In this document: positions 1,907-34,861 of the stretch, in pieces | Layout of the letters: each line of letters begins with the position of its first letter | Position numbering within the stretch: position 1 is the first letter of the stretch | Source: Brumimicrobium aurantiacum | Lineage (GTDB): Bacteria; Bacteroidota; Bacteroidia; Flavobacteriales_D; Crocinitomicaceae | Assembly (NCBI RefSeq): GCF_003402975.1 | Contig: NZ_QURB01000006.1 | Span: 124,001-188,000, forward strand | Reading direction: 5' to 3' | Length of the DNA: 64,000 bases | Made by a program: the position numbers and the translations under genes | Notes under the pieces: model-generated | What the model was told of the DNA's origin: nothing | Seen by the model: only the letters and a program-made list of their open reading frames with translations | The model's database searches: none

Positions 1907-3364
1907 ATGAAAGCACTCAAAGGAATACTCATTGGAATTGTGGTAATAGCTGTTTTGCTATTTGCAGGACTGTATGCGTTAGAGTCTTATATTGAAAAAC
2001 AAATTTCGAAAGAAGAGTCAGTTGAGTATGATGAATTTGAATTGAATTATAAAGGCGATATTCAATTCAAAGGTTTAAGATTCACAAATGATAGGCTAAG
2101 TGTAAAAGTTAAGGATATTCAACTTACTTTTGGCTTATCTAAAATTTTATTCTCAGACACGATTTTAATTACGAATGCAGATTTGAATGACGTTCATGTT
2201 GATTTGATTAAAGCTGATTCAACAAAATCAAAAAAGCACTACTCCAAGAAAAAGAAAGATAGAAAGCCATTCGCATTAGAAGATTTAAGTGTGAGTAATC
2301 TTGATTTTTATGCTTTGAAGGAAGATTCCCTTGGGAAAATAGATACAATGACGTATGTGAATGGAGTAACATTGAACGCGCATTTTGATGATTTAAAGGA
2401 TATTCAGTTGAGTAATCTTAAGGATTTGAAAGTTGATTACTTAAGACATAACGCAGGAGTATTACACGATATTGGATGTAGTGGATTAACGTATGGAGAT
2501 CAACAGTTAAAATTGAATACCTTTAAGGTGTTTACACGTTATTCTAAAGAAGATTACATCAATTATATTCCAGAACAAAAGGAACACGTTCAATTGGTTG
2601 CACATGCTTTGTCCTTGGATAGTTTAACCTTGGACATCAATCAAAATAAATTAAATCAAATAGCAGTAAATGAAATACAAATTGACTCTTTTGATTTGGA
2701 CGTTTATAGAGATAAAACCATTCCACAAACTACTCAAATTAAACCCACTTATGGTCAAATATTTCAAAATTTAGGATTTAAAATCGATGGAAATTTATTG
2801 AAGGTTGATCATTCAAGTATTTCCTATGCTATGAAAGGGGAAGATGGAAAAATTAGTCAAATAGAATTGAAAAATGTTCATGCTAACGTTAAACACATCA
2901 ATAATAAGCCTGAATTGGAACAAAATATTTTATTAATTGGTGGTTTTTCTCTTGGTGAAACATCTGATGTAAATGTGGATATTTCTTATAATCAATACGC
3001 CAAAGTTGAAACTTTTCAATTAAATGTTCATGCTCAAAATATTGAAACAAGTTCATTAAATAGTATGTTGAAACCTGCGGTAAACGTGGAATTAACAGGT
3101 TTTATCACTGAATTAAAGTCTCACATGGTTTCGAAAGGAGATGCGGATGGAAGCTTTATGCTTAAATCCCAAGATGTAGCTTTAGATGTATATAATAAAA
3201 AAGGAAAAGAAAGAAAGGTCGTTTCATTTCTTGCCAGTAAATTATTGAATCCACCAATAGAAAAACATAGTGAGGTTGTTGGTTTTGAAAGAGATCCAAC
3301 AAGATCAATGTGGAGGTATTCTTGGTATTTTATCCTTGAAGGCCTTAAAAACACAATTTTGTAA
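1907..3364 (+). CDS. AsmA-like membrane-anchored protein, function unknown
   Basis: A 485-residue protein with a single N-terminal membrane anchor (about residues 5-25), followed by a long, beta-rich extracytoplasmic region. This region shows the alternating 'LNDVHVDLIKADS...ALEDLSVSNLDFYAL' style of AsmA/DUF748-like proteins. A lysine-rich patch (about residues 105-120) interrupts it. AsmA-like proteins are linked to lipid transport or outer-membrane homeostasis, but no specific function can be assigned. The next gene (SanA-like) begins about 13 nt after its stop, suggesting co-transcription. Confidence 0.6.
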   Translation: MKALKGILIGIVVIAVLLFAGLYALESYIEKQISKEESVEYDEFELNYKGDIQFKGLRFTNDRLSVKVKDIQLTFGLSKILFSDTILITNADLNDVHVDLIKADSTKSKKHYSKKKKDRKPFALEDLSVSNLDFYALKEDSLGKIDTMTYVNGVTLNAHFDDLKDIQLSNLKDLKVDYLRHNAGVLHDIGCSGLTYGDQQLKLNTFKVFTRYSKEDYINYIPEQKEHVQLVAHALSLDSLTLDINQNKLNQIAVNEIQIDSFDLDVYRDKTIPQTTQIKPTYGQIFQNLGFKIDGNLLKVDHSSISYAMKGEDGKISQIELKNVHANVKHINNKPELEQNILLIGGFSLGETSDVNVDISYNQYAKVETFQLNVHAQNIETSSLNSMLKPAVNVELTGFITELKSHMVSKGDADGSFMLKSQDVALDVYNKKGKERKVVSFLASKLLNPPIEKHSEVVGFERDPTRSMWRYSWYFILEGLKNTIL

Positions 3365-3377
3365 TATTTTAAAAGAA

Positions 3378-4046
3378 TTGAGAACGAAGAATAGAAATAT
3401 ATTTAAAAGAAAAGGACGGTTAATTTTAATCGTCATTTTTGCTAGCTTACTTTTTGCTGGACTATTTGGTTATTTTTCGAATGTTATCGTTGAAAATTCA
3501 GCAGAAAACAAAACTTTCGATGATGTAAATAAAATAAGTCAAAATAGAGTAGGGGTAGTGTTGGGAACTGCAAAATATCGTGCTGCAGGTGGAATTAACT
3601 TATACTTTAAATTTAGGATTGATGCTGCTGTACAATTATATAAAAATGGGAAAATCGATTTTATATTAGTAAGTGGAGACAACAGCACAAAATATTATAA
3701 TGAACCTGCATCTTTTAAAGAAGAGCTGATTAAAAACGGAGTTCCTGCAGCTAAAATATTTCTTGATTATGCAGGGTTTCGCACTTTAGATTCTGTTGTT
3801 CGCGCATTAAAGGTATTTGGTCAAAATAAAATAACCATCATTTCTCAAAAATTTCATAATGAAAGAGCGATTTATTTGGCCAGTAAAAATGGAATTAACG
3901 CTATTGGATTCAATGCTAAAGATGTTGGTCATAATTATGGTTTAAAAACTAAGATTAGAGAATACTTCGCCCGAAGTAAAGCAATTTTAGATGTGGTTTT
4001 TGGTGTTGAACCAAAATTTTTAGGTGAACCTATCAGGATCCATTAA
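3378..4046 (+). CDS. sanA: SanA/YdcF-like DUF218 envelope protein
   Basis: Recognised from the SanA-type core: GVVLGTAKYRAAGGINLYF, then FILVSGDNS, EELIKNGVP and DYAGFRTLDSVVRA. One transmembrane segment lies near the N-terminus (LILIVIFASLLFAGLFGYF). SanA homologues affect envelope permeability (vancomycin exclusion in enterobacteria); the biochemical activity is uncertain. The start is a choice. A GTG at 3270 would overlap the upstream gene by 95 nt and add a non-hydrophobic leader. The TTG at 3378 places the membrane segment near the N-terminus and gives 222 residues, close to the family's usual size. Confidence 0.8.
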   Translation: MRTKNRNIFKRKGRLILIVIFASLLFAGLFGYFSNVIVENSAENKTFDDVNKISQNRVGVVLGTAKYRAAGGINLYFKFRIDAAVQLYKNGKIDFILVSGDNSTKYYNEPASFKEELIKNGVPAAKIFLDYAGFRTLDSVVRALKVFGQNKITIISQKFHNERAIYLASKNGINAIGFNAKDVGHNYGLKTKIREYFARSKAILDVVFGVEPKFLGEPIRIH

Positions 4047-4388
4047 TCAAAGTCATTTTCAGACAATTTTCTTTTTTACTTATTTCAATAATAGAGTTTG
4101 CAGCTGCATGTGGTGTTAATGTAAATGATTGGCTTTATTTCCAAGTCTATGGATAAAGGAATATTGAATGTAATTGCGGTGAAAAAAGTCTATAAAAACG
4201 TAAGAGGGAACTGGACGAGCGTCCTAATTCCCTCTTACTAATCAACCTAACCTAACCACCTAAATCGATGTAAAAGTAGTTCAAAGGTTCGTTATATCAA
4301 AATTATTTTGAGAAAAAGGTGTTAAAATTTCTAATAATTAGATTAAACCTTAATAATTTTAGATGAATATATTGTTAAGTAGTATAAA
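4047..4388. other. Convergent intergenic region, mostly empty
   Basis: 342 bases between the SanA-like gene (+) and wbqC (-). It holds one strong inverted repeat (4201-4237, listed separately) and otherwise AT-rich sequence. A short open stretch ending at 4156 has no start codon and is not called. Confidence 0.6.
4201..4237. terminator. Bidirectional hairpin between convergent genes
   Basis: TAAGAGGGAA (4201-4210) pairs perfectly with TTCCCTCTTA (4228-4237). Inside the loop a second short stem GGAC/GTCC can form. It sits between two convergent genes, so it could end transcripts from both sides. There is no long T run, so its termination strength is uncertain. Confidence 0.55.
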
Positions 4389-4985
4389 TTACCGTGGTAA
4401 AATATAGTTTCTTGCCAAAGGACCTTCATTCATGAGTAAATCTAAAATTGAAAGATTCGGAAAAAACGGGTATTTATCTGAAAATACTTGGATGTATTCT
4501 TTTTGTTCAATGGCAAACTTTTTATGGTCCAATGCAATTCTGTAATCTTCCTCATCTTTTGGAATGATATATTCTTCAGAGTAACTAACTTCAATATCTA
4601 AATCTAACCACGAAAAGAGTTGTTCCATGATGTACCGATTGAATTTATAAAGTAATTCTTCTTCGTGAAATATCAATGCTTTTATTTGTGGACCGTAGTA
4701 AAAGAAATAGGGGGCATGTTGGTAACTACTTTGAATTGCCTTCCAATGGTCTTTTCTCCAATTTGTTTCGTTGCTGATTTTTACATCTTTCACAGGAGTT
4801 TTACTTCCGTTAGGACGAATGACAGGCACGCTAAGATACATCGGACCATTACTTTCAAGTATTTGAGTACGATTTCTCCAAGTCTGTTTTTTGTAATGTT
4901 CGTGGAGATCAATTACAATTTTACTTCCTTTTACAATTGATTGAAAATATGGAATGCTCCCAAAGTAATTTGTCGAATAGATCAT
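4389..4985 (-). CDS. wbqC: WbqC-family protein
   Basis: 198 residues matching the WbqC-like family: N-terminal STNYFGSIPYFQSIV, central QTWRNRTQI and ISNETNWRKDHWKAIQSSY, and PYFFYYGPQI. The family occurs in glycan clusters and, in Bacteroidota, next to lepB; its activity is not established (sugar-modifying enzyme is the usual guess). The start ATG at 4985 overlaps the lepB stop by one base (TAATG), implying translational coupling at the end of the parA-to-wbqC operon. Confidence 0.85.
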   Translation of the reverse strand: MIYSTNYFGSIPYFQSIVKGSKIVIDLHEHYKKQTWRNRTQILESNGPMYLSVPVIRPNGSKTPVKDVKISNETNWRKDHWKAIQSSYQHAPYFFYYGPQIKALIFHEEELLYKFNRYIMEQLFSWLDLDIEVSYSEEYIIPKDEEDYRIALDHKKFAIEQKEYIQVFSDKYPFFPNLSILDLLMNEGPLARNYILPR

Positions 4986-6886
4986 TATTTAATTTTCGTA
5001 AATAATCTTTCAGTTCTTACACCACCATTAGGATCGCTAGAATACCAAACCATTGATGCTCTACCTACAATGTGATCTTCAGGCACGAATCCCCAAACCC
5101 TAGAGTCTGCAGAGTTGTATCGATTGTCTCCCATCATCCAATAGTAATCTAGCTCAAAAGTATAGTCTGTAGCTTCCTTTCCATCAATGAAGTATTCACC
5201 ATCTTTTTCTTCAAATGTGTGCAATTCGTAGGCCGTAATCACACGTTCATACCAAGCCACATTATGTGCATTCAATTCAATTGTTTCTCCTTTTTTTGGT
5301 ACCCAAAATGATTCAAAGTTTGAAACAGTATTACTATGTGCCAAAGATTTTGGATAATAATTTAAATTATTGATTTTCTGTGAAGCAGTTTGTTCTGCCA
5401 CGTTTTGACGCTTTGGGTTGATCAACTCAAACTGTGCATCTGGATAGTTTTCTTTCAATGCTTCCAATTCAGTCGCAGTCAAGTTCATAATTCTTCCGTT
5501 GTTGTAATAATCACGGTCAATTTCTAAACCATATTTAGATTTCATGACTCGCGGAGAAGGTATTGTTATGTTTGAAACTTGATACTGTAAGTTTTGATGT
5601 TCAAAAATTGGTGCTTTTTCACCGTTAACATATACTTGCGCATCTTCAATTCTCAGTGAATCTCCTGGAATACCAATACATCTTTTGATATAGTTTTCCC
5701 TTTTGTCAACAGGACGGTAAACAACACCATAATGATTAATCATTCTTCCTTCACTTCCGGAAAAAGTTCTTTTATTTACAGCAATTTCATGTCTGGCTTT
5801 ATCCTTCCATTCCTCAATGTTATCGATATAGTCTTGATAAATTCCATCAATGATTTTTGATAAGTTTTTATCTAGTTTCTGGGCCTCAATTTGCATTGCA
5901 CTATCTAAGGCTTCACCTTGATATATCTTTGATAAATCTTGTCTGCGTTTTTGTAATAATGCGTTACTGTTTGGAATTTTACTTTTGTCAATCGATTCCT
6001 CAAATAGTCTCTTAGCTTCGTTATTTACAATACCATGATAGTCATGTCCCATTAAACCGTTTGGCATTCTTGGGTCATAAACTGCAGTGTCACCTGAAGG
6101 GTAATTGAAAACCACAACGTCATAATTATTGATATTATCCCATCCAGGAAGTCTTGTGTATTCTAGTTTTTCAAGAGTTGTGTAAGACTTTACATTAATC
6201 CATGGAATTGTGTTGTGAACCAAAGGAAACGATAATGGAGTAACAGGAACTTTTGATCCATAGGCCATTTTATTTACAACTAAGAAATCACCAACCAATA
6301 ATGTTTTCTCCATCGAACCGGTCGGAATCTGAAATGGTTCGAAAACATAAGTTCTAATCGCGCTTGCAGCAACTAATGCAAATAAAATACTGTCTCCCCA
6401 TTCTTTAATAACTGTCTTTTTCCCTTTCTTCTTTTTTTGCATAAAACTTAAAGCATATGCAACAACATGTCCAATTATTGGAAGGGTTAAGAAGAGTACA
6501 AGATGATCTCCATTTTTACGTCGTTCAATATCTTTTTGGTTTTCCCAATCTGTAGTATAATTGGGTTGAACTGTTTCATCATTGGCGATTTTAGCCATGA
6601 TTAAAAATGGGAAGAATATTCCCTGTAGCGTGTCTGTTAATGAGAAAAATCCATGTTTTCTGATATAACTAACATTAAATACCATCCACATGATAATATG
6701 GATCCCAGGGATTACCATTAAAAAGGCCCACCATGCTGGTTGACCTGCAATTTTTGATGCAATTGCATAATTATATCCAGGAATAAATGCTTCCCAAGAT
6801 TTATGTCCTGATTTTTGGAAACTTTTTGGCCATAAAGCCAATATTGGATAGATGATAAAAAATAGATAAAAGTATAAAGCAGACAT
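4985..6886 (-). CDS. lepB: Signal peptidase I, long form with N-terminal membrane domain
   Basis: Cleaves signal peptides of exported proteins at the periplasmic face of the inner membrane. The S26 catalytic Ser is in PTGSMEKTL (about Ser191) and the general-base Lys in [11 protein letters not shown] (about Lys401). The closing box [11 protein letters not shown] is near residue 595. At 633 residues it is much longer than E. coli LepB (324). The first ~110 residues form an extra membrane domain (DUF5684-like, with [10 protein letters not shown]), and a ~190-residue insertion separates the Ser and Lys boxes. Long LepB is usual in Bacteroidota. It lies 13 nt after dapB. Confidence 0.95.
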
Positions 6887-6899
6887 GTGTTTTTATTTT

Positions 6900-7625
6900 T
6901 TAAGAAAGTGCTAAAACGTCTTTCATTGTAAATATTCCTTTTTTATTTTGAATCCATTCAGCGGAAATCACTGCTCCTAAGGCAAATCCTTCACGGTTGT
7001 GAGCTTCATGCGTAATGGAAATAGTGTCAATTTTTGATTGGTACGAAATTGTATGGGTTCCTTTAACATCATGCTCTCTAACGGCTTCAATCTTTAATTT
7101 ATTGCCACTTTTTGATTTTTTATCATTTTGTGGACAATACCAATCATTGAATTGAGTGTGGTTCTGAAGAAGATCAGTGGCCAATGAGATCGCCGTACCA
7201 CTTGGAGCATCTAATTTCTCTGTATGGTGAATTTCTGTCATTTCTGGAGTATATTCTTTGTATGGCTCCATTAATTTAGCGAGTTGTTCATTTAATTTGA
7301 AAAATAAATTAACACCTACACTAAAGTTTGATGCATGAACCATTGCTCCGTCTTCAGTATCAATTCGATGCTTAACTTCATCATATGATTCATTCCAACC
7401 TGTAGTTCCAATAATACTTGGAATCTTGTGAGTTATTAGAAAATTGATGTTATCTAAAACAGAATCAGGTGTTGAGAAATCAATTGCAGCATCTACATTT
7501 TTTACCATTTCTGAAGAAAGTGGATTGTCTTTTGTTGCCTTTCCAATTACTTCATGACCACGAGAAACTAAAATTTTTTCAATTTCTTTTCCCATCTTTC
7601 CGTAACCCACCAATACGATTTTCAT
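6900..7625 (-). CDS. dapB: 4-hydroxy-tetrahydrodipicolinate reductase
   Basis: Catalyses the NAD(P)H-dependent second step of the diaminopimelate/lysine pathway. The dinucleotide-binding loop is at the N-terminus (VGYGKMGKEI). The active-site motif EIHHTEKLDAPSGTA, with the catalytic His and Lys, lies near residue 130. Length 241 is typical of the Bacteroidota form. The dapB-lepB pairing is conserved in this phylum. The gene sits in the (-) operon, 55 nt after the DUF5683 gene. Confidence 0.96.
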   Translation of the reverse strand: MKIVLVGYGKMGKEIEKILVSRGHEVIGKATKDNPLSSEMVKNVDAAIDFSTPDSVLDNINFLITHKIPSIIGTTGWNESYDEVKHRIDTEDGAMVHASNFSVGVNLFFKLNEQLAKLMEPYKEYTPEMTEIHHTEKLDAPSGTAISLATDLLQNHTQFNDWYCPQNDKKSKSGNKLKIEAVREHDVKGTHTISYQSKIDTISITHEAHNREGFALGAVISAEWIQNKKGIFTMKDVLALS

Positions 7626-7680
7626 ATACTTGTTTTTAGAGTGCTACAAATTTAAAATAATCACTGATTCTTTCGTTTTT

Positions 7681-8262
7681 TTAGCGAAAATTAAGGTTAA
7701 AAGAGAGTCCTGGAGTACGAAAACCTTGCAACGAAGGTCTTATGTTTAAAGATAGGTCTTTTGATATATCAAAATTGACAAAATGTGCTTCAACATGGGC
7801 GTCTAAAATGTTTAGTCCATAGACAGCGATAAACGCAAAAATCATTAAATCTCTTGACCTTCTAGCATCTTCAAATAAAGTCAAGATTCCTTGATCATCA
7901 TACGAAGCGTATGCCTCAAGATTAGGTGATTCATTTTCAGATCTGTATAAATACTCTTCTTTTAAATCTTTTTGTAAAGCGTGATTTTGTAAAAATTTAT
8001 ATCCTGTATATCCAAGTCCAGCATAGATAATAGGAATTTTCCAAAAAGCCTTTTTCTTTCCTTTAGGCATGGCCAAATGATTGTAAATTTGACCTCCACC
8101 GGGTATTAAAGAATATAACGCCGCTTTTTTAGGAGAATGTAAGGTGTCCTTTTCTTCCTCAAAAACCTGAGTAGAATCAAGCGGATAGGAGTTTGTGTCA
8201 ATTTCCTCTTGTGCGGAAGAAACAAATGAAATACAAAGAAAAAGGACTATTGTGAAACGCAT
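7681..8262 (-). CDS. DUF5683 domain membrane protein
   Basis: 193 residues with an N-terminal signal peptide (FTIVLFLCISFVSSAQ). It carries the DUF5683 signature KAALYSLIPGGGQIYN, followed by a segment with membrane-like helices and a C-terminal beta-like stretch ending in Phe-Arg. Its function is unknown. The placement between parB and dapB is conserved in Flavobacteriales. It lies 5 nt downstream of parB and is probably co-translated with it. Confidence 0.8.
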   Translation of the reverse strand: MRFTIVLFLCISFVSSAQEEIDTNSYPLDSTQVFEEEKDTLHSPKKAALYSLIPGGGQIYNHLAMPKGKKKAFWKIPIIYAGLGYTGYKFLQNHALQKDLKEEYLYRSENESPNLEAYASYDDQGILTLFEDARRSRDLMIFAFIAVYGLNILDAHVEAHFVNFDISKDLSLNIRPSLQGFRTPGLSFNLNFR

Positions 8263-8267
8263 TTTTA

Positions 8268-9167
8268 TTATTCGTTCAAGATTTCAATAATACGATTCAA
8301 GTCTACCTCAGAGTTAAAGTTGATGATTAACTTACCATTTCCTGTAGGTTGCTTTTTTATTTGAACCTTTGCAGCTACTCTATCAGAAAACTCCTGAGTA
8401 AAGTCAACTTGACGGTTGGTTACAACTGGTTTTGCTTCTTTCTTTTTAGGCTCTTCAGTTTTGTTTTTATCCTCACGTAAAATGTTTTCTAAATCTCGAA
8501 CTGAAAGTTTCTCTTCAATTACCCTTTCAAAAAGGTTTAATTGTTTTGATTCATCTTCAATACCAACTAATGCCCTTGCGTGTCCCATCGAGATTTCATT
8601 TTCACGAACAGACAATTGAATTTTTGCAGGCAACTTCAATAAACGCAAATGATTGGTAATTGATGTTCTACTTTTTGAAATTTGCTGCGCTAGTTTTTCC
8701 TGTGTTAAATTACATTCTTCAATTAAACGGTGGTAAGACAAAGCAACTTCTATGGCGTTTAAGTCTTGACGTTGAATGTTTTCAACCAATGCCATTTCCA
8801 ACATTGTTTGGTCATTGGCCACACGAATATATGCTGGAATTTCTTTTAATCCTGCCAATTGAGAAGCTTTAAATCTACGCTCACCAGAAATTAATTGGTA
8901 ATTGCTTCTGCCTAATTTTCTAACCGTAATTGGCTGAATAATTCCATGAGTAGCAATAGATTCCTTCAATTCATTCAGTGCTGTTTCCTCAAAATGTGTT
9001 CTCGGATTGAATGGGTTCGCTTCTATTGAAGAAATAGGTAATAAGGCAACGGACCCCAATACTGAAGAATCTGATAAATCCTCAGAAGTGATGTCAGTTT
9101 TTGAACTTTCTAATAATGCACTTAATCCTTTTCCTAGTGCTGGTCTTTTCTTTGAATTAGAGCTCAT
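8268..9167 (-). CDS. parB: Chromosome partition protein ParB
   Basis: The ParB nuclease/CTPase domain begins at about residue 40 (LLPISSIEANPFNPRTHF). It includes GIIQPITVRK and the GERRFKAS box that binds CTP, followed by the helix-turn-helix region (LTQEKLAQQISKSRTSITNHLRLL) that contacts parS. The C-terminus is a short dimerisation domain after a Lys/Glu-rich linker. The start overlaps parA by 11 nt, as usual for the pair. No parS-like palindrome was found by eye within the window. Confidence 0.96.
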   Translation of the reverse strand: MSSNSKKRPALGKGLSALLESSKTDITSEDLSDSSVLGSVALLPISSIEANPFNPRTHFEETALNELKESIATHGIIQPITVRKLGRSNYQLISGERRFKASQLAGLKEIPAYIRVANDQTMLEMALVENIQRQDLNAIEVALSYHRLIEECNLTQEKLAQQISKSRTSITNHLRLLKLPAKIQLSVRENEISMGHARALVGIEDESKQLNLFERVIEEKLSVRDLENILREDKNKTEEPKKKEAKPVVTNRQVDFTQEFSDRVAAKVQIKKQPTGNGKLIINFNSEVDLNRIIEILNE

Positions 9168-9969
9168 CTTCTAATGAAATTTTATTGTTGTTGTCAGTTA
9201 ATTTAACGGCTTCTTCTTTTTGAATTATCTCTCTTGCAAGATTAAGGTAGTTTACGGCACCTTTACTTGTAGCATCATGCATAATGATCGTAGAACCATG
9301 AGATGGTGCTTCTGCCAAGTTGGTGTTTCGATGAATTACAGTGTCAAATACCAAATCCTGGAAATGTGTTTTTAATTCTTCCACGACATGATTGGCCAAT
9401 CTTAAACGTGTATCATAAAGCGTAATTAAGATTCCTTCAATATCCAATTCTGTGTTCAATCGACCTTGAATAATTTTAATAGTGTTCAATAGTTTTCCTA
9501 ATCCTTCCAAAGAATAGTATTCTGACTGAACAGGAACAATTACTGAATTAGCAGCTGTTAAAGCGTTTACGGTTATTAATCCCAATGATGGAGAACAGTC
9601 AATAAGGATGAAATCATAGCGATCTTTTACTTTGTCAAGCACCTTTTTCATTAGGTGTTCTCGATTGGGCATATTGATCATTTCTAACTCGGCACCTACC
9701 AAATCTATGTGAGATGGAAGAACATCCAAATTAGGGTTTTCAGTTGTTAAAATCACCTCTGAAGGATGCACATCATTAATCAAACAATCATAAATATTAC
9801 GTGTTTGTTTTGGATCAAATCCTACTCCGGATGTTGCGTTTGCTTGTGGATCAGCATCAACAATTAATGTCTTGTATTCTAAAACACCAAAACTACCGCC
9901 TAAATTGACTGCTGTGGTTGTTTTACCAACTCCTCCCTTCTGATTTGCAATGGCAATTATCTTACCCAT
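9157..9969 (-). CDS. parA: Chromosome partition ATPase ParA/Soj
   Basis: Walker-type cytoskeletal ATPase that moves ParB-parS complexes during chromosome segregation. The deviant Walker A is at residues 10-18 (KGGVGKTTT) and Walker A' is LIVDADPQANAT. Walker B is FILIDCSPSLG and the switch region is VPVQSEYYSLEGL. Length 270 is normal. It heads a (-) operon running parA-parB-DUF5683-dapB-lepB-wbqC. Confidence 0.97.
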   Translation of the reverse strand: MGKIIAIANQKGGVGKTTTAVNLGGSFGVLEYKTLIVDADPQANATSGVGFDPKQTRNIYDCLINDVHPSEVILTTENPNLDVLPSHIDLVGAELEMINMPNREHLMKKVLDKVKDRYDFILIDCSPSLGLITVNALTAANSVIVPVQSEYYSLEGLGKLLNTIKIIQGRLNTELDIEGILITLYDTRLRLANHVVEELKTHFQDLVFDTVIHRNTNLAEAPSHGSTIIMHDATSKGAVNYLNLAREIIQKEEAVKLTDNNNKISLEDEL

Positions 9970-10390
9970 GATTTATATAATTTTAAACAGTATAACTCTA
10001 TTGAAAAAACAAGATACGGAATAAATTTTAACCGAATAGCTTATTGTTTCATTTAAATAATAACAGAATAATGTTAGAAATATTTAATCAGTACTGAACT
10101 AATTTTTATCCTTTTGATCAATCGCTTAGTATCTCAATAGTTAGCTTATTTATCTGCCTATTTTAAACAGATTTTCTCAAAAAAACTATTCTGTTATGGT
10201 TTAAATATTCTACTTTAGAATGATAGACCAAGTGCAAATATTTCGCTTTTATTTCTATAATCCAACTTAATTTTGAAGTTGTTAATAACTTTAGTTTTGA
10301 CCTTTATCTAATGACCTATTTTTTGGATAGAATCTTTTAAAATCTTAGAATTATTATAACTTTATTGTTTGAATCTAATAATTGATTGAT
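9970..10390. other. Divergent AT-rich intergenic region
   Basis: 421 bases between parA (-) and the VanX-like gene (+). It must hold the promoters for both, but no full TTG...TAnnTTTG pair was found by eye. No RNA gene, strong hairpin or parS palindrome was seen. Confidence 0.5.
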
Positions 10391-11185
10391 ATGAAATTGA
10401 ATGCTTTTGGAATGTTGTTTTCTGTACTTTTGTTTGTTGGATGTTCAAATGATGAAAAGTCTAATAATAAGGTGAAATCCGATGTTTGGAGTGAAGATTC
10501 TGTTCAGGTTGATAACAGTGATAATTTAGAAAAAGATACAGTTGTAGTAGAAAAGGAGCCAGAGGTCGTGAGTGATTTACAATTGAAAATGGAGGCAGCA
10601 GGTTTAGTCGATATCCAAGCGGTAGATCCCACTATTCATGTAGATGTAAAGTATGCCACTGATGATAATTTTATGAATCGTGTTTTATATCCTGGCTATG
10701 ACAAAGTTTATCTTCAACCTGTTGTTGCGGAAAGATTATCCAAAGCTCAAAAAGCATTACAAGCTATAGATTCTACGCTTACTTTATTGGTTTTTGATGG
10801 AACACGTCCACGCTCTGTTCAACAAGAAATGTGGGATGCCTTAGATACCATTCCTTTTAAGGAAAGAGTGAAATTTGTGAGTAATCCAAAAAACGGTTCA
10901 ATTCATAACTATGGTTGTGCTGTAGATTTAACCATCATGAATAAATATTCTAAAGGAGTTTTGGATATGGGAGCAGGTTATGATGATTTAAGAAAAATTG
11001 CCTATCCGCGCCATGAAGAGAAGTTTCTGGCCTCTGGAGAATTGACAATTTTACAAGTTCAAAATAGAAAATTATTGAGGGATGTCATGCGTAAAGGAGG
11101 TTTTTGGGTCATCGAAACTGAATGGTGGCATTTTAATGCTTTTTCAAGAAAAAAAGCCGATGAAATGTTTGAAGCAATAGAGTAA
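10391..11185 (+). CDS. D-alanyl-D-alanine dipeptidase (VanX-like) lipoprotein
   Basis: Peptidase family M15D. The zinc ligands are in SIHNYGCAVDL and ETEWWHF, and the conserved active-site Arg in FDGTRPRSVQQ. An N-terminal lipobox (LLFVGCS) predicts lipidation and export to the periplasm, unlike cytoplasmic VanX. A ~60-residue acidic linker follows. It most likely cleaves D-Ala-D-Ala in peptidoglycan recycling rather than conferring resistance, since no vanA/vanH-like gene is near. The ATG at 10391 was chosen over a TTG at 10382 because it gives a normal lipoprotein signal. Confidence 0.88.
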   Translation: MKLNAFGMLFSVLLFVGCSNDEKSNNKVKSDVWSEDSVQVDNSDNLEKDTVVVEKEPEVVSDLQLKMEAAGLVDIQAVDPTIHVDVKYATDDNFMNRVLYPGYDKVYLQPVVAERLSKAQKALQAIDSTLTLLVFDGTRPRSVQQEMWDALDTIPFKERVKFVSNPKNGSIHNYGCAVDLTIMNKYSKGVLDMGAGYDDLRKIAYPRHEEKFLASGELTILQVQNRKLLRDVMRKGGFWVIETEWWHFNAFSRKKADEMFEAIE

Positions 11186-29693: not shown

Positions 29694-29900
29694 GAACTAT
29701 TGTTTTTTTACAAAAATAGGGATTACGGTGCATTAACCATGAATTTTATATTTGAATCTATGCTCTACATTATGCCGATTTAGGAAAGAGCGTATTTAAT
29801 AGGATCTGCCAAAAAAAGCCAGTCATTTATTTTATATAATTTTAAATATGATTTTCTCCATTTGAATGAGTATATCGTTAGTTTTGTGAAAAAAGAAATT

Positions 29901-30323
29901 ATGAAACTCGTCTTATTACTCGGACTAATCACAATCAGTACATTCGGATATTCTCAAAGCGTGGAAGGTATTTGGCAAACATTTGATGACGAAACCAATA
30001 AAGTTGAATCAGATGTTCAAATTTATATCAAGAATGGGAAGTTATACGGCAAAATTGTCAAAATTTACGGAAATACAGAGGCTGAAAGGAATGTAAAATG
30101 TACCGAATGTAAAGGAGATAAGAAAAATCAACCAATAAAAGGAATGGTGTTCATAATGGGATTAACGGAATCTGATGGAGAGTGGGAAGGTGATAATGCA
30201 ATTCTTCACCCGGAAACAGGAAAAGTTTACGATGGTTTGATATGGTTGGTCGATGATAATAAACTTGCCGTTAGAGGTTATTTAGGATGGCTGTATGAGA
30301 CAAATTATTGGAAGAGAAAGTAG
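29901..30323 (+). CDS. DUF2147 family exported protein, copy 1
   Basis: 140 residues from the ATG at 29901, with a signal peptide (LVLLLGLITISTFGYSQS). The DUF2147 domain shows SVEGIWQTFDDET at the start, KNGKLYGKIVKIYG, KCTECKGDKKNQPIKGM with a Cys-x2-Cys pair, and a C-terminal GKVYDGLIWLVDDNKLAVRGYLGWLYETNYWKR-type ending. The fold is a small periplasmic beta barrel of unknown role. A paralogue lies at 31068, on the far side of a repeat array. Confidence 0.85.
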   Translation: MKLVLLLGLITISTFGYSQSVEGIWQTFDDETNKVESDVQIYIKNGKLYGKIVKIYGNTEAERNVKCTECKGDKKNQPIKGMVFIMGLTESDGEWEGDNAILHPETGKVYDGLIWLVDDNKLAVRGYLGWLYETNYWKRK

Positions 30324-30430: not shown

Positions 30431-30885
30431 TATTAAATCCCGAAGGGATGATACTATTATCAACTAAACTTCAAGTGAACCAATCAAATCCTAAAGAATG
30501 ATCTAATTTAACCTCTGTGTAAACTCTATGAATCTCTGTGTTAGAACCCATTAAATCCCGAAGGGATGATACTATTATCAACTAAACTTCAAGAGAATCA
30601 ATCGAATCCTAAAGAATGGTCTAAATTAACCTCCGTGTTCCTCTGTGTAAACTCTATGAATCACTGTGTCAAAACCCATTAAATCCCGAAGGGATGATAC
30701 TATTATCAACTAAACCTCAAGAGAACCAACCAAATCCTAAAGAATGATCTAATTTAACCTCCGTGTTCCTCTGTGTTCCTCTGTGTAAACTCTATGAATC
30801 ACTGTGTCAAAACCCATTAAATCCCGAAGGGATGATACTATTATCAACTAAACCTCAAGAGAACCAACCAAATCCCAAAGGGATG
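30431..30885. repeat. Palindromic repeat array 1 (ATCCC-GAA-GGGAT type)
   Basis: Four perfect AATCCCGAAGGGATG units start at 30436, 30554, 30682 and 30820. Each is followed exactly 51 nt later by a decayed partner (30487, 30605, 30733, 30871). The spacing between perfect units grows 118, 128, 138 bp because a 10-nt 'tgttcctctg' word is present 0, 1 and 2 times. The hairpin and the 49-51-nt phasing match array 2, so both belong to one family. No coding capacity. Confidence 0.9.
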
Positions 30886-31067
30886 ATATAATTAAACCTC
30901 TGTATAACTTTACGAATCTCCACGTTAAAACCACCCCAAGAACACCCCCGTGGAAATTCACCACTCTACAAATTATCTATTGATAATTATCAATTTTTAA
31001 TTATTTCCCCTCCTTATACCAAGGAAAAAACCTACAAAAAGCTTAAATTACCGACAAAATTCACATA

Positions 31068-31490
31068 ATGAAAAATCTTCTTATCATACTCACAATTCTA
31101 CTCACATTGACTTCATATTCTCAATCCTTAGAAGGAGTCTGGGAAACCTATAATGATGAAAGTGGAGAGTTAAAATCCGAAGTTAAAATCTACCTCAAAA
31201 ATGGAAAACTCTACGGTAAAATCATCAAACTACACAATCTTAAAATCGATTTAAAAGACGCCAAATGCTACGATTGTAAAGACTACCGCAAAAATCAACC
31301 AGTTCTGGGAATGGAAATCATTTCTGGACTCACCAAAGACGGTAAATACTGGGAAGGCGATGAAGTACTGCTCGATCCAAATAACGGAAAGGTTTACGAT
31401 GCTAAATTATGGATCACTAAAAACAACGAACTCGCAGTCCGTGGATATATTGGATTGATTTATCGTACACAGTATTGGAAAAAGAAGTAG
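31068..31490 (+). CDS. DUF2147 family exported protein, copy 2
   Basis: 140 residues, a close paralogue of the protein at 29901. It has a signal peptide (LLIILTILLTLTSYSQS), then SLEGVWETYNDES, LKNGKLYGKIIKLH, KCYDCKDYRKNQPVLGM and the Trp/Tyr-rich end. The codon choice looks richer in C at third positions than in copy 1 (ctc, tac, aaatc), suggesting a different history despite the shared fold. The pair flanks repeat array 1. Function unknown. Confidence 0.85.
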   Translation: MKNLLIILTILLTLTSYSQSLEGVWETYNDESGELKSEVKIYLKNGKLYGKIIKLHNLKIDLKDAKCYDCKDYRKNQPVLGMEIISGLTKDGKYWEGDEVLLDPNNGKVYDAKLWITKNNELAVRGYIGLIYRTQYWKKK

Positions 31491-31805: not shown

Positions 31806-31913
31806 TTGGAAAACGAAAATCTTATAGCAGAATACTTGTCTCAACTTAAAAAAATGAGAAGAGATAAGAATAAGAAAAGAGGGGCGCTCCACATAATTAA
31901 TATAAGGAATTAG
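31806..31913 (+). pseudogene. N-terminal fragment resembling an HNH restriction endonuclease
   Basis: A 35-codon stretch from a TTG (31806) to a TAG (31911-31913). It reads ENLIAEYLSQLKKMRRDKN and then KKRGALH. This recalls the N-terminus of a widespread HNH endonuclease family in which 'LRRDK...APHKPILLL' follows; here the match stops at ALH and is replaced by unrelated codons. No HNH catalytic part is present. If the identification is right, it is a truncated remnant. It overlaps the methyltransferase stop on the other strand by 4 nt. Recognised from memory only. Confidence 0.4.
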
Positions 31914-32611
31914 CCTAAGAGTTGAAGATGCCACTGATTATTTTTTATTAAACGATTGTTTACAGTAGATTCTTTCACTTCAATTGCATCTAATTTAAAT
32001 CTCGTTTTCATCAAATCGATACAAAATGAATTGAAAAATTCTAATTCAATATTTTCGTCTATAGAAAAACCTGAAGTGTCTTTTACAATGTTTTTATGAG
32101 ATAAAATGATATGATATTCTGCTTGTGGATATTTAGAGTGAAAGGCAAAAAAATGTTTACTTTCTGTGAATGGGATACGATAATCATTTCCAGATAAAAA
32201 TGGATTTAAGTCATAATTGGATTTGTTTTTAATGGTGAAATGTTCCATTTCATAAATCTCACAATTCTTATTTCTAAAAATAGATTTTGAGTTGAGAACA
32301 ACATTACATTGATAAGTCTCCTTTTTGTGGATTCTATGCATACGGTAGCCTTCATTTCTTAAATCTCTTCTAACAGCAATATAAACTTTACCAATAGGCT
32401 TGACTAATTGTGAGAGTTTCATTAAAACAGTAGCTTGATCTAGAGGAAGCAATACATTGAGTACATAGAAACAAATGATAGTATCGAATTTTTCGGTTGG
32501 ATAGTCTGGGAAATAGTGCTTGTCATAACCTTCTATAATGACACCTTTTTCTTTCAGCAATTTGACATCACTTCCAAATCCACAACCAAAATCGAGTACT
32601 TTTCTAACCAA
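31910..32611 (-). pseudogene. SAM-dependent methyltransferase with decayed HIT-like tail, probably 5'-truncated
   Basis: Residues 1-110 are a class I methyltransferase (KVLDFGCGFGSDVKLL, FDTIICFYVLNVLLP, KVYIAVRRDLRNEG). Residues ~140-233 align in my memory with a C-terminal HIT domain found fused to this methyltransferase type (TESKHFFAFHSKYPQAEYHI). However, the expected His-x-His-x-His reads NQWHLQ, leaving one His. The only start is TTG at 32611. In-frame coding-like sequence (CFQNHSLVKIILNEDLL) continues upstream to a TAA at 32675-32677 without an ATG, so the true N-terminus seems lost. It could still be expressed as a short form. Confidence 0.6.
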
Positions 32612-32745: not shown

Positions 32746-32859
32746 TAAGTTTTTTTTAGATTAATAATTATTTTTTTTAAATTGCTATATCACTATTAAC
32801 CAATGGGTCTTAAAAGGGGGGAATCATCTTGAAAGAACTTTATTAAAACATTAAACGAT

Positions 32860-33321
32860 ATGGCAGGAACGTATTCACAAATCTATATTCAATTCGTTAT
32901 TGTGGTAAAAGGTCGAGAACACCTATTAAAAAAAGAGTGGCGAGCAGAAGTTTTTAAATATATTTCAGGAGTAATTAAAGTAAAAAATCAAAAACCCATC
33001 ATTGTAAATGGAGTGGTTAATCACGTTCATATTTTTGTAGGGTTAAAACCATCAATGAGAATTTCAGATTTAGCCAGAGATATAAAAAACAATACCTCAA
33101 AATTCATCAATGAGCAAAATTGGCTCAAAAGTAAATTTTCTTGGCAAGTAGGATATGGCGCTTTCTCTTATGCTCAATCTCAAATAGATAATGTTTATAA
33201 TTACATTTTAAACCAAGAAGAGCATCATCGTAAGAAAACTTTTAAAGAAGAGTATTTAGAATTTCTAGATAAATTTGAAGTAGAATATGATGAACGATAT
33301 CTTTTCGACTGGCTGGAGTAA
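32860..33321 (+). mobile_element. tnpA: Y1 (HUH) transposase, IS200/REP-associated type
   Basis: A 153-residue single-domain Y1_Tnp protein that cuts single-stranded hairpin DNA. The HUH motif is NHVHIFVG (His55, His57). The nucleophile Tyr lies in VYNYILNQEEHH (Tyr113 or Tyr115). GTYSQIYIQFVIVVKGRE and KFSWQVGYGAFSYAQSQ are family hallmarks. No TnpB is present. The stop codon lies inside the first super-repeat of the array that follows, and a related array lies 2 kb upstream. This organisation suggests a domesticated RAYT/REPtron enzyme rather than an ordinary IS. The gene appears intact. Confidence 0.9.
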
Positions 33322-33467
33322 TATCACCTCTTCGAGGTTTTGTCTTGTGCTCATGTACTATTTTAGAATTATACCAGCCTTTCAGGCTTAATATTCTAAA
33401 AATATATGTTCTAGCTTTAATATCTAAGTAATAAAGTTAAACTTGGCTATAAATCACTTGAACCACA
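33307..33467 (+). repeat. Super-repeat A1, overlapping the transposase 3' end
   Basis: Starts GACTGGCTGGAGTAATATC, containing the last four transposase codons and the stop. Copies A2 and A3 begin GACTGGAATAATATC, i.e. the same end with a small deletion. Hairpins at 33326-33338 and 33376-33388. Confidence 0.85.
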
Positions 33468-33593
33468 AATCCCGAAGGAATGAAATAATTTTGAGTGTCA
33501 AACCACACGGCACACGAATCCCGAAGGAATGATAGAGTTCTAGCTAGCAAACCAAAAGACCTACAAATCCCGAAGGGATGGCATTAAAAAAAC

Positions 33594-33750
33594 GACTGGA
33601 ATAATATCACCTCTTCGAGATTTTGTCTTGTGCTCATGTACTATTTTAGAATTATACCAGCCTTTCAGGCTTAATATTCTAAAAATATGTGTTCTAGCTT
33701 TAATATCTAAGTAATAAAGTTAAACTTGGCTCCAAATCACTTGAACCACA
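33594..33750 (+). repeat. Super-repeat A2
   Basis: Nearly identical to A1 apart from the deletion at its left end. The first hairpin has a weakened right arm (GAGAT). Confidence 0.85.
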
Positions 33751-33878
33751 AATCCCGAAGGGATGACAGAATTCTAAGCGTCAAACCAAATGACCTATAA
33801 ATCCCAAAGGGATCAAATTATTATAACTCCAGAGAAACAAGGTTTCAATAAATCCCGAAGGGATGGCATTAAAAAAAC

Positions 33879-34035
33879 GACTGGAATAATATCACCTCTT
33901 CGAGATTTTGTCTTGTGCTCATGTACTATTTTAGAATTATACCAGCCTTTCAGGCTTAATATTCTAAAAATATGTGTTCTAGCTTTAATATCTAAGTAAT
34001 AAAGTTAAACTTGGCTCCAAATCACTTGAACCACA
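33879..34035 (+). repeat. Super-repeat A3
   Basis: Essentially the same as A2, including GAGAT. It is followed by the largest block of five 15-nt palindromes. Confidence 0.85.
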
Positions 34036-34261
34036 AATCCCGAAGGGATGAAATTAGTCTAACCCCAAATCGCACGACACACGAATCCCGAAGGGATGAT
34101 AGAGTTTTAACTAGCAAACCATATGAGTTACAAATCCCGAAGGGATGACAGAATTCTAAGCGTCAAACCAAAAGACCTACAAATCCCGAAGGGATGTTAT
34201 TATTATCACCTCAAACAAAGATGGATTCAACAAATCCCGAAGGGATGGCATTAAAAAAAAC

Positions 34262-34406
34262 GACTTGAATAATATCACCTCTCCGAGGTTTTTGTTCTTA
34301 ACTCATGTATTTTTATATTCATTTCAGCCTTTCAGGTTTCGTACTCTTAAAATATAAGTTCTAGTCTTTATCCTGAATTGTGACTAAAAAAAACAAAGCC
34401 ACTTCA
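34262..34406 (+). repeat. Super-repeat A4, diverged subtype
   Basis: Shares the left end (GACTTGAATAATATCACC). The first hairpin loop is TCC but its ACCTC/GAGGT stem is intact. The right half differs from A1-A3. Confidence 0.8.
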
Positions 34407-34536
34407 AATCCCGAAGGGATGACAGAATTCTAGCTAGCAAACCAAATGACCTATAAATCCCGAAGGGATGAAATTATTATAACTCCAGAGAAACAAGGTT
34501 TCAATAAATCCCGAAGGGATGACATAATAAAATATG

Positions 34537-34680
34537 GACTTGAATAATATCACCTCTTCGAGGTTTTTGTTCTTAACTCATGTATTTTTATATTCATTTC
34601 AGCCTTTCAGGCTTCGTAATCTTAAAATATAAGTTCTGGTCTTTATCCCGAATGGTGACTGAGAAAACAAAGCCACTTCA
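34537..34680 (+). repeat. Super-repeat A5, diverged subtype
   Basis: Same subtype as A4, with a perfect ACCTC-TTC-GAGGT hairpin and AGCCT-TTC-AGGCT hairpin. One palindrome (34681) closes the array. Confidence 0.8.
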
Positions 34681-34861
34681 AATCCCGAAGGGATGACATT
34701 TAGCCTACTCATGAAACTTAAAAATAACCAAACACCAATCTTTTTCACCTATCCATTCCTGCCAATATCCTAACCATCCCAACGCCAAATTTTTCATCTT
34801 TTTTAAAAATTCGTAAATGATAATTGATTATTCGTAATTATTTTACACTACCTTTATTCTA

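Follow-up and report, generated by a model that had tools for sequence, protein, structure and literature searches.

The locus at 32860-34710 of the window, by which the whole 64-kb stretch of DNA analysed here is meant, places a small Y1 transposase gene, tnpA, directly before a dense array of short hairpins, and raises the question of whether enzyme and hairpins form one system and of what kind. The earlier note had proposed a REPtron, in which a domesticated transposase maintains or spreads a repeat family. The reading favoured here, with a probability of about 0.68, is a REPtron-like single-stranded DNA system built on a Y1 transposase of class 1, subclass 1.2. The features of the locus are collected in Table 1.

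Table 1. Features of the tnpA locus, in positions of the window.
Feature	Position	Strand	Source
tnpA, Y1/HUH single-strand DNA transposase, 153 aa	32860..33321	+	Pfam, NCBIfam, alignment, PDB profile and fold match
Main array, 25 hairpins in five super-repeats (10 '+', 15 '-')	33310..34710	.	covariance model, repeat finder
First direct pair of '+' hairpins, 50 nt apart, from the tnpA stop codon	33310..33394	+	covariance model
First trio of '-' hairpins, AATCCCGAAGG[G/A]ATG type, spacing ~49 nt	33463..33595	-	covariance model, repeat finder
Second array, five '-' hairpins without transposase, between two DUF2147-like ORFs	30431..30900	-	covariance model
Approximate left edge of the block common to three other species	32823..32859	+	BLAST limits 32823, 32834, 32844

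The tnpA ORF matches the Pfam Y1_Tnp family (E 2.6e-21), and its product scores above the cut-off of the NCBIfam IS200/IS605 model. Within an alignment of 19 homologues, H55 and H57 of the HUH motif, Y115 and Q119 are invariant, and no TnpB-like ORF is present beside tnpA in the ORF list of the window; the earlier description of an intact 153-residue Y1 transposase without TnpB is therefore borne out. The protein contains the motifs NHVH, WQ and YILNQEEHH and, judged by sequence, carries the signature of TnpAY1 subclass 1.2 (IS200-like class 1), with the Y motif Y---Q--HH formed by Y115, Q119, H122 and H123 and the W motif by W95-Q96. Its HUH motif, NHVH, is DH[IVL]H in most homologues and DH[IV]H in the subclass signature. 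A length of 153 aa and a single copy in the genome also fit the subclass, with its short core protein (median 148 aa) and low copy number.

A profile search of the PDB with TnpA returned solely IS200-type TnpA structures (ISDra2, IS608 and others). When an AlphaFold model of the protein (mean pLDDT 90) was matched to known structures, TnpA of the ISDra2/IS608 type ranked first and the TnpAREP structure 4ER8 thirtieth. Class 2 identity (TnpAREP/RAYT) was rejected, as the Y motif would be Y---NP where the window protein has YILNQ, and the flanking REPs would be tagged GTAG or GTGG where the foot is TnTC. The motif signature, profile search and fold ranking together indicate that TnpA is not a RAYT. 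The dN/dS of tnpA, 0.05-0.16, indicates that the protein is kept by purifying selection. Given the HUH/Y1 residues and fold, TnpA is a predicted single-stranded DNA nuclease whose cleavage chemistry would be that of the HUH/Y1 family.

The hairpins beside the gene share the frame 5'-TAtAATnATnTC-[A N4]-TTC-[N4' T]-T, with a 5-bp stem, an A-T closing pair and a 3-nt loop. Three palindromes had been distinguished earlier; once sorted by strand, ATCCC/GGGAT, ACCTC/GAGGT and AGCCT/AGGCT take the same frame, and three independent palindromes were rejected in favour of a single family in two orientations because foot, stem length and loop are common to all. The earlier count of at least 25 hairpins in five super-repeats agrees with the 25 found by the covariance model. 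Each super-repeat is of the type ++---, 283-285 nt long, with identities of up to 98% by the repeat finder. The sequence ATCCCGAAGGGAT occurs 20 times in the window with at most one mismatch against 0.04 expected from shuffles, an excess of about 500-fold. The stems vary with compensation: among 61 matches picked by their flanks only and not by pairing, 37 pair fully, compared with 7.4 when the arms are shuffled. As single-stranded DNA, each hairpin has a folding energy of about -3 kcal/mol.

The second array lies about 2 kb upstream of tnpA and is missing at the orthologous locus of another genome of the genus, G009. Elsewhere in the 64-kb window the covariance model found no further significant hairpins, and a genome-wide search for the palindrome, of the kind the earlier note had suggested, found copies concentrated in the two arrays, with only a few degenerate ones outside them (C18:74857-75034 and C2:28188-28294). 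The paralogous small ORFs on either side of the second array (29862-30323 and 31068-31490) are DUF2147-like by eye, and G009 has a similar pair in tandem with no array between. A methyltransferase-like ORF with a TTG start (31910-32611, minus strand) lies between a DUF2147-like ORF and tnpA and is missing from the orthologous locus of G009, which is compact.

The arrangement recurs around homologous genes. In the surroundings of 59 homologues, the density of the motif TC-[R N4]nnn[N4' Y]-T is 2.56/kb up to 500 nt from the gene and falls to 0.09/kb more than 1.5 kb away (~27x); a control foot gives 0.05/kb. At least one motif within 500 nt is found at 43 of the 59 homologues and none at 16, and the spacing between neighbouring hairpins peaks at 49-52 nt. 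Upstream hairpins near the gene are in '-' orientation in 34 of 36 cases and downstream hairpins in '+' orientation in 49 of 53; the typical subclass 1.2 unit in Bacteroidota tends to read '- - tnpA + +', with inverted hairpin pairs. The first '+' pair of the window is the conserved downstream end of this unit, and the upstream pair is missing from the window's copy of the block.

Closing pair and loop differ between clades, with the types A:TTC, G:TAC, G:TCT and G:GCT. Mapping hairpin type onto the protein tree, a quick tree in which many branches are weakly supported, required 9 changes, compared with 14-18 for shuffled labels. At the level of sequence comparison, closing pair and loop follow the protein tree, that is, they co-vary with the enzyme clade. 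A second system of the same design is present within the genus, in G001 (L063, L058), where divergent tnpA genes (48-49% identical) are accompanied by large hairpin arrays of their own, with a G-C closing pair and a TCT loop.

A role of the hairpins as RNA, either as transcription terminators or as mRNA stabilisers after the gene, is the least credible of the explanations weighed. The region does hold eight terminator-like matches against 1.1 expected, and a hairpin directly follows the stop codon in many homologues. However, just two T are fixed 3' of the stem, neither the conserved, AT-rich foot on the 5' side nor the clade-specific loop is a feature of terminators, and arrays are present away from the gene too. 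Membership of a known RNA family was likewise rejected, as a search of Rfam gave no match.

Gene and hairpins also co-occur across genomes. The four genomes of the genus that have a close tnpA contain 35, 20, 23 and 6 hairpins, against 0, 0, 0, 0, 3 and 3 in the six that lack one (Fisher 0.005). Among 297 genomes of the phylum the tnpA gene family is present in 117, and a covariance model built from gene-adjacent copies in several of the surveyed genomes found any match in 35, of which 28 have the gene family (Fisher 4e-7). All 15 genomes with at least four matches have it (Fisher 5e-7), five of them (G025, G083, G169, G197 and G273) having given no copies to the model; in all of these comparisons the genomes are not phylogenetically independent. 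Equal abundance in relatives that lack the transposase, which the earlier note had named as evidence against its idea, was found neither in the genus nor in the 297 genomes. G197 and G273 (L128-L130) contain many TTC hairpins, and their nearest-matching transposases are flanked by TAC-type hairpins, which tells against the favoured reading, as do the 16 homologues with no motif nearby; the TTC copies may be orphan hairpins or a case of cross-recognition.

Hairpins away from the gene are found as discrete modules. In G121, a single-contig genome, gene-less modules of four hairpins ('- - + +', ~180 bp, 87-91% identical) lie at unlinked loci, arranged like the two flanks of the genome's own tnpA with the gene taken out; no genome of its genus gave both flanks of a module joined as a precise empty site. 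Next to one module (L123, G121:C1:2489500-2495500) lie further repeat families, ~100-240 bp long, that occur dozens of times in G121. Many pairs or single hairpins distant from the gene are present in G020, G245, G133 and G032. In G245 (L126, G245:C1:1616001-1635500), 22 hairpins over ~15 kb are all in one orientation, which could reflect the replication strand. The spreading of a repeat family proposed earlier thus fits the dispersed gene-less modules of other genomes and fits poorly here, where hairpins extend barely beyond the two arrays.

This limited dispersal in the window's genome means that amplification there may be plain tandem duplication, and recombination may account for the growth of the tandem array itself. 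Growth purely by replication slippage or unequal recombination, with the neighbouring transposase uninvolved, would suit both the low dispersal and the near-identity of the super-repeats, which look as if derived from tandem duplication. As a complete account it is nevertheless very unlikely, since it does not account for an association that spans genera, for the constant orientation, for the match between hairpin type and protein tree or for the unlinked modules.

The tnpA gene and array occupy three different loci in four genomes of the genus. At the window site, upstream of xseA, none of the nine other genomes of the genus has such hairpins. G004 and G009 share a site downstream of aspartokinase, at which G000 and the other genomes read have no hairpins, and in G002 the block lies inside an apparent type I restriction-modification operon, where it is found (L110, G002:C34:97000-112000, 2597-10899) between hsdM/hsdS/KAP-NTPase-like genes and an hsdR-like gene. 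Between G000 and G002, dS is 0.19 for tnpA against 1.42 for xseA and 2.03 for aspartokinase, which points to horizontal transfer after the two species had separated. A phage origin was rejected, with no match in 50,697 phage records, as was plasmid carriage, for which just two Bacteroidota replicons were found, with proteins 36-52% identical. The term 'domesticated' used in the earlier note suits the single copy and the purifying selection, but not the varying loci or the recent transfer.

Relocation and transfer favour the main rival, in which the block would be an autonomous IS200/IS605-type insertion sequence whose ends are unusual inverted double hairpins (- - tnpA + +), and the arrays and modules would be its deletion derivatives (MITE/PATE-like), with no domestication. 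A block that occupies three loci in four species while the orthologous sites lack hairpins, the recent transfer seen in dS, and the symmetrical unit with its gene-less modules would all be expected of such an element. It is nonetheless judged rather unlikely. Multiple near-identical copies per genome, typical of an insertion sequence, are not seen: the window's genome has one tnpA copy, and other genomes hold few, divergent ones. G004 and G009 keep the same position at high divergence, the window copy is without the upstream pair, and no exact insertion junction was recovered. Furthermore, the ends of known IS200/IS605 elements are not inverted repeats.

Among known systems, the closest solved structures are those of IS200/IS605 elements (IS608, ISDra2), which, with their non-autonomous derivatives, share class 1 catalytic motifs and hairpin ends with the window system; the latter differs in being neither multicopy nor near-identical, in its inverted double hairpins and in having no TnpB. 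TnpAY1 subclass 1.2 (Y---Q--HH), a class 1 group of Bacteroidetes and Cyanobacteria, resembles the window protein in length, in the Y---Q--HH and WQ motifs, in low copy number and in its occurrence in Bacteroidetes. According to Quentin et al. (2018, PMC6006769) the group has no REPs and in general no IS200-type ends, whereas hairpins lie beside most of the homologues surveyed here. In the published search a REP had to carry GTAG or GTGG as its tag and a stem no shorter than 7 bp (PMC6006769), so that hairpins with a TnTC foot and a 5-bp stem could not be seen.

Class 2 REPtrons (TnpAREP/RAYT with GTAG REPs, as in E. coli, Stenotrophomonas and Marinomonas) are similar in having a single-copy Y1 gene among inverted, short, 5'-tagged hairpins, with gene-less copies elsewhere. 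The likeness extends to REPMb of Marinomonas, which has a 5-bp stem and hairpins concentrated near the gene (PMC8266576), as here. For hairpins that lie near the gene and are also dispersed through the genome, a RAYT feature, the picture is mixed: dispersal is seen in G121, G020, G245, G032 and others, while the window's genome has only a few degenerate copies outside the arrays. In contrast to class 2, the enzyme here is of class 1 (Y---Q, not Y---NP), the foot is TnTC and not GTAG, direct pairs ~50 nt apart stand on each side, and the triloop is class-specific. The REPtron idea of the earlier note thus holds in the sense of 'works like', with hairpins that track the gene in genus and phylum, co-vary with its clade and form gene-less modules elsewhere, and fails as a statement of RAYT identity.

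CGTC-tagged REPs, reported in Bacteroidetes among other phyla and often tagged TGTC, have stems of 8-9 bp, loops of 4-5 nt and a CCA tail, and no associated transposase was found for them (PMC3733652). The tag, the A-T pairs at the stem base and the occurrence in Bacteroidetes recall the TnTC hairpins, although the longer stems and loops, the CCA tail and the lack of a transposase partner set them apart; the likeness is a lead only.

In the favoured REPtron-like reading, co-evolution and co-occurrence suggest that TnpA recognises the hairpin of its own clade. Its substrate would be a hairpin in single-stranded DNA, in which a TnTC foot on the 5' side precedes a stem of 5 bp and a loop of 3 nt, the closing pair and loop being clade-specific (A-T and TTC in the window's clade). 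A TnpA dimer would bind two hairpins on single-stranded DNA, for example the lagging-strand template, and cut next to them, using Y115 and the HUH metal site; the freed strand would then be joined to a different single-stranded target. In this way pairs, or modules of four hairpins, could be copied or moved without the gene, with the whole block moving occasionally, and the local super-repeat array would come from successive insertions at the locus, with recombination or slippage enlarging it further. A wider proposal is offered tentatively: subclass 1.2 might be a separate enzyme-REP lineage with an origin in IS200 transposases that is independent of the RAYTs, with a triloop and closing-pair code that coevolves with the enzyme, mobilising TnTC-tagged palindromes and possibly the CGTC/TGTC REPs.

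Y1-REP partnerships are already known in other subclasses, and nothing relevant to the palindrome itself was found in the open-licence papers searched. None of these papers describes a hairpin partner for subclass 1.2, its TnTC foot, the 5+3 geometry, the double pairs in inverted orientation or a link of loop and closing pair to enzyme clade, though a gap in open-licence papers does not prove that these features are undescribed. The reading places an enzyme-plus-hairpin system in a branch of the family reported without such hairpins. Described without IS ends or REPs, subclass 1.2 had been left without a known substrate, and the hairpins are a candidate for it, in an enzyme family that occurs in ~40% of the sampled Bacteroidota genomes. 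Since the type of hairpin changes with the enzyme clade, swaps of loop and closing pair offer a test of how a compact single-stranded DNA-cutting enzyme recognises its target. The Bacteroidota would gain REP-type repeats of their own, useful for studying a transposase in a state between mobile element and host-maintained gene.
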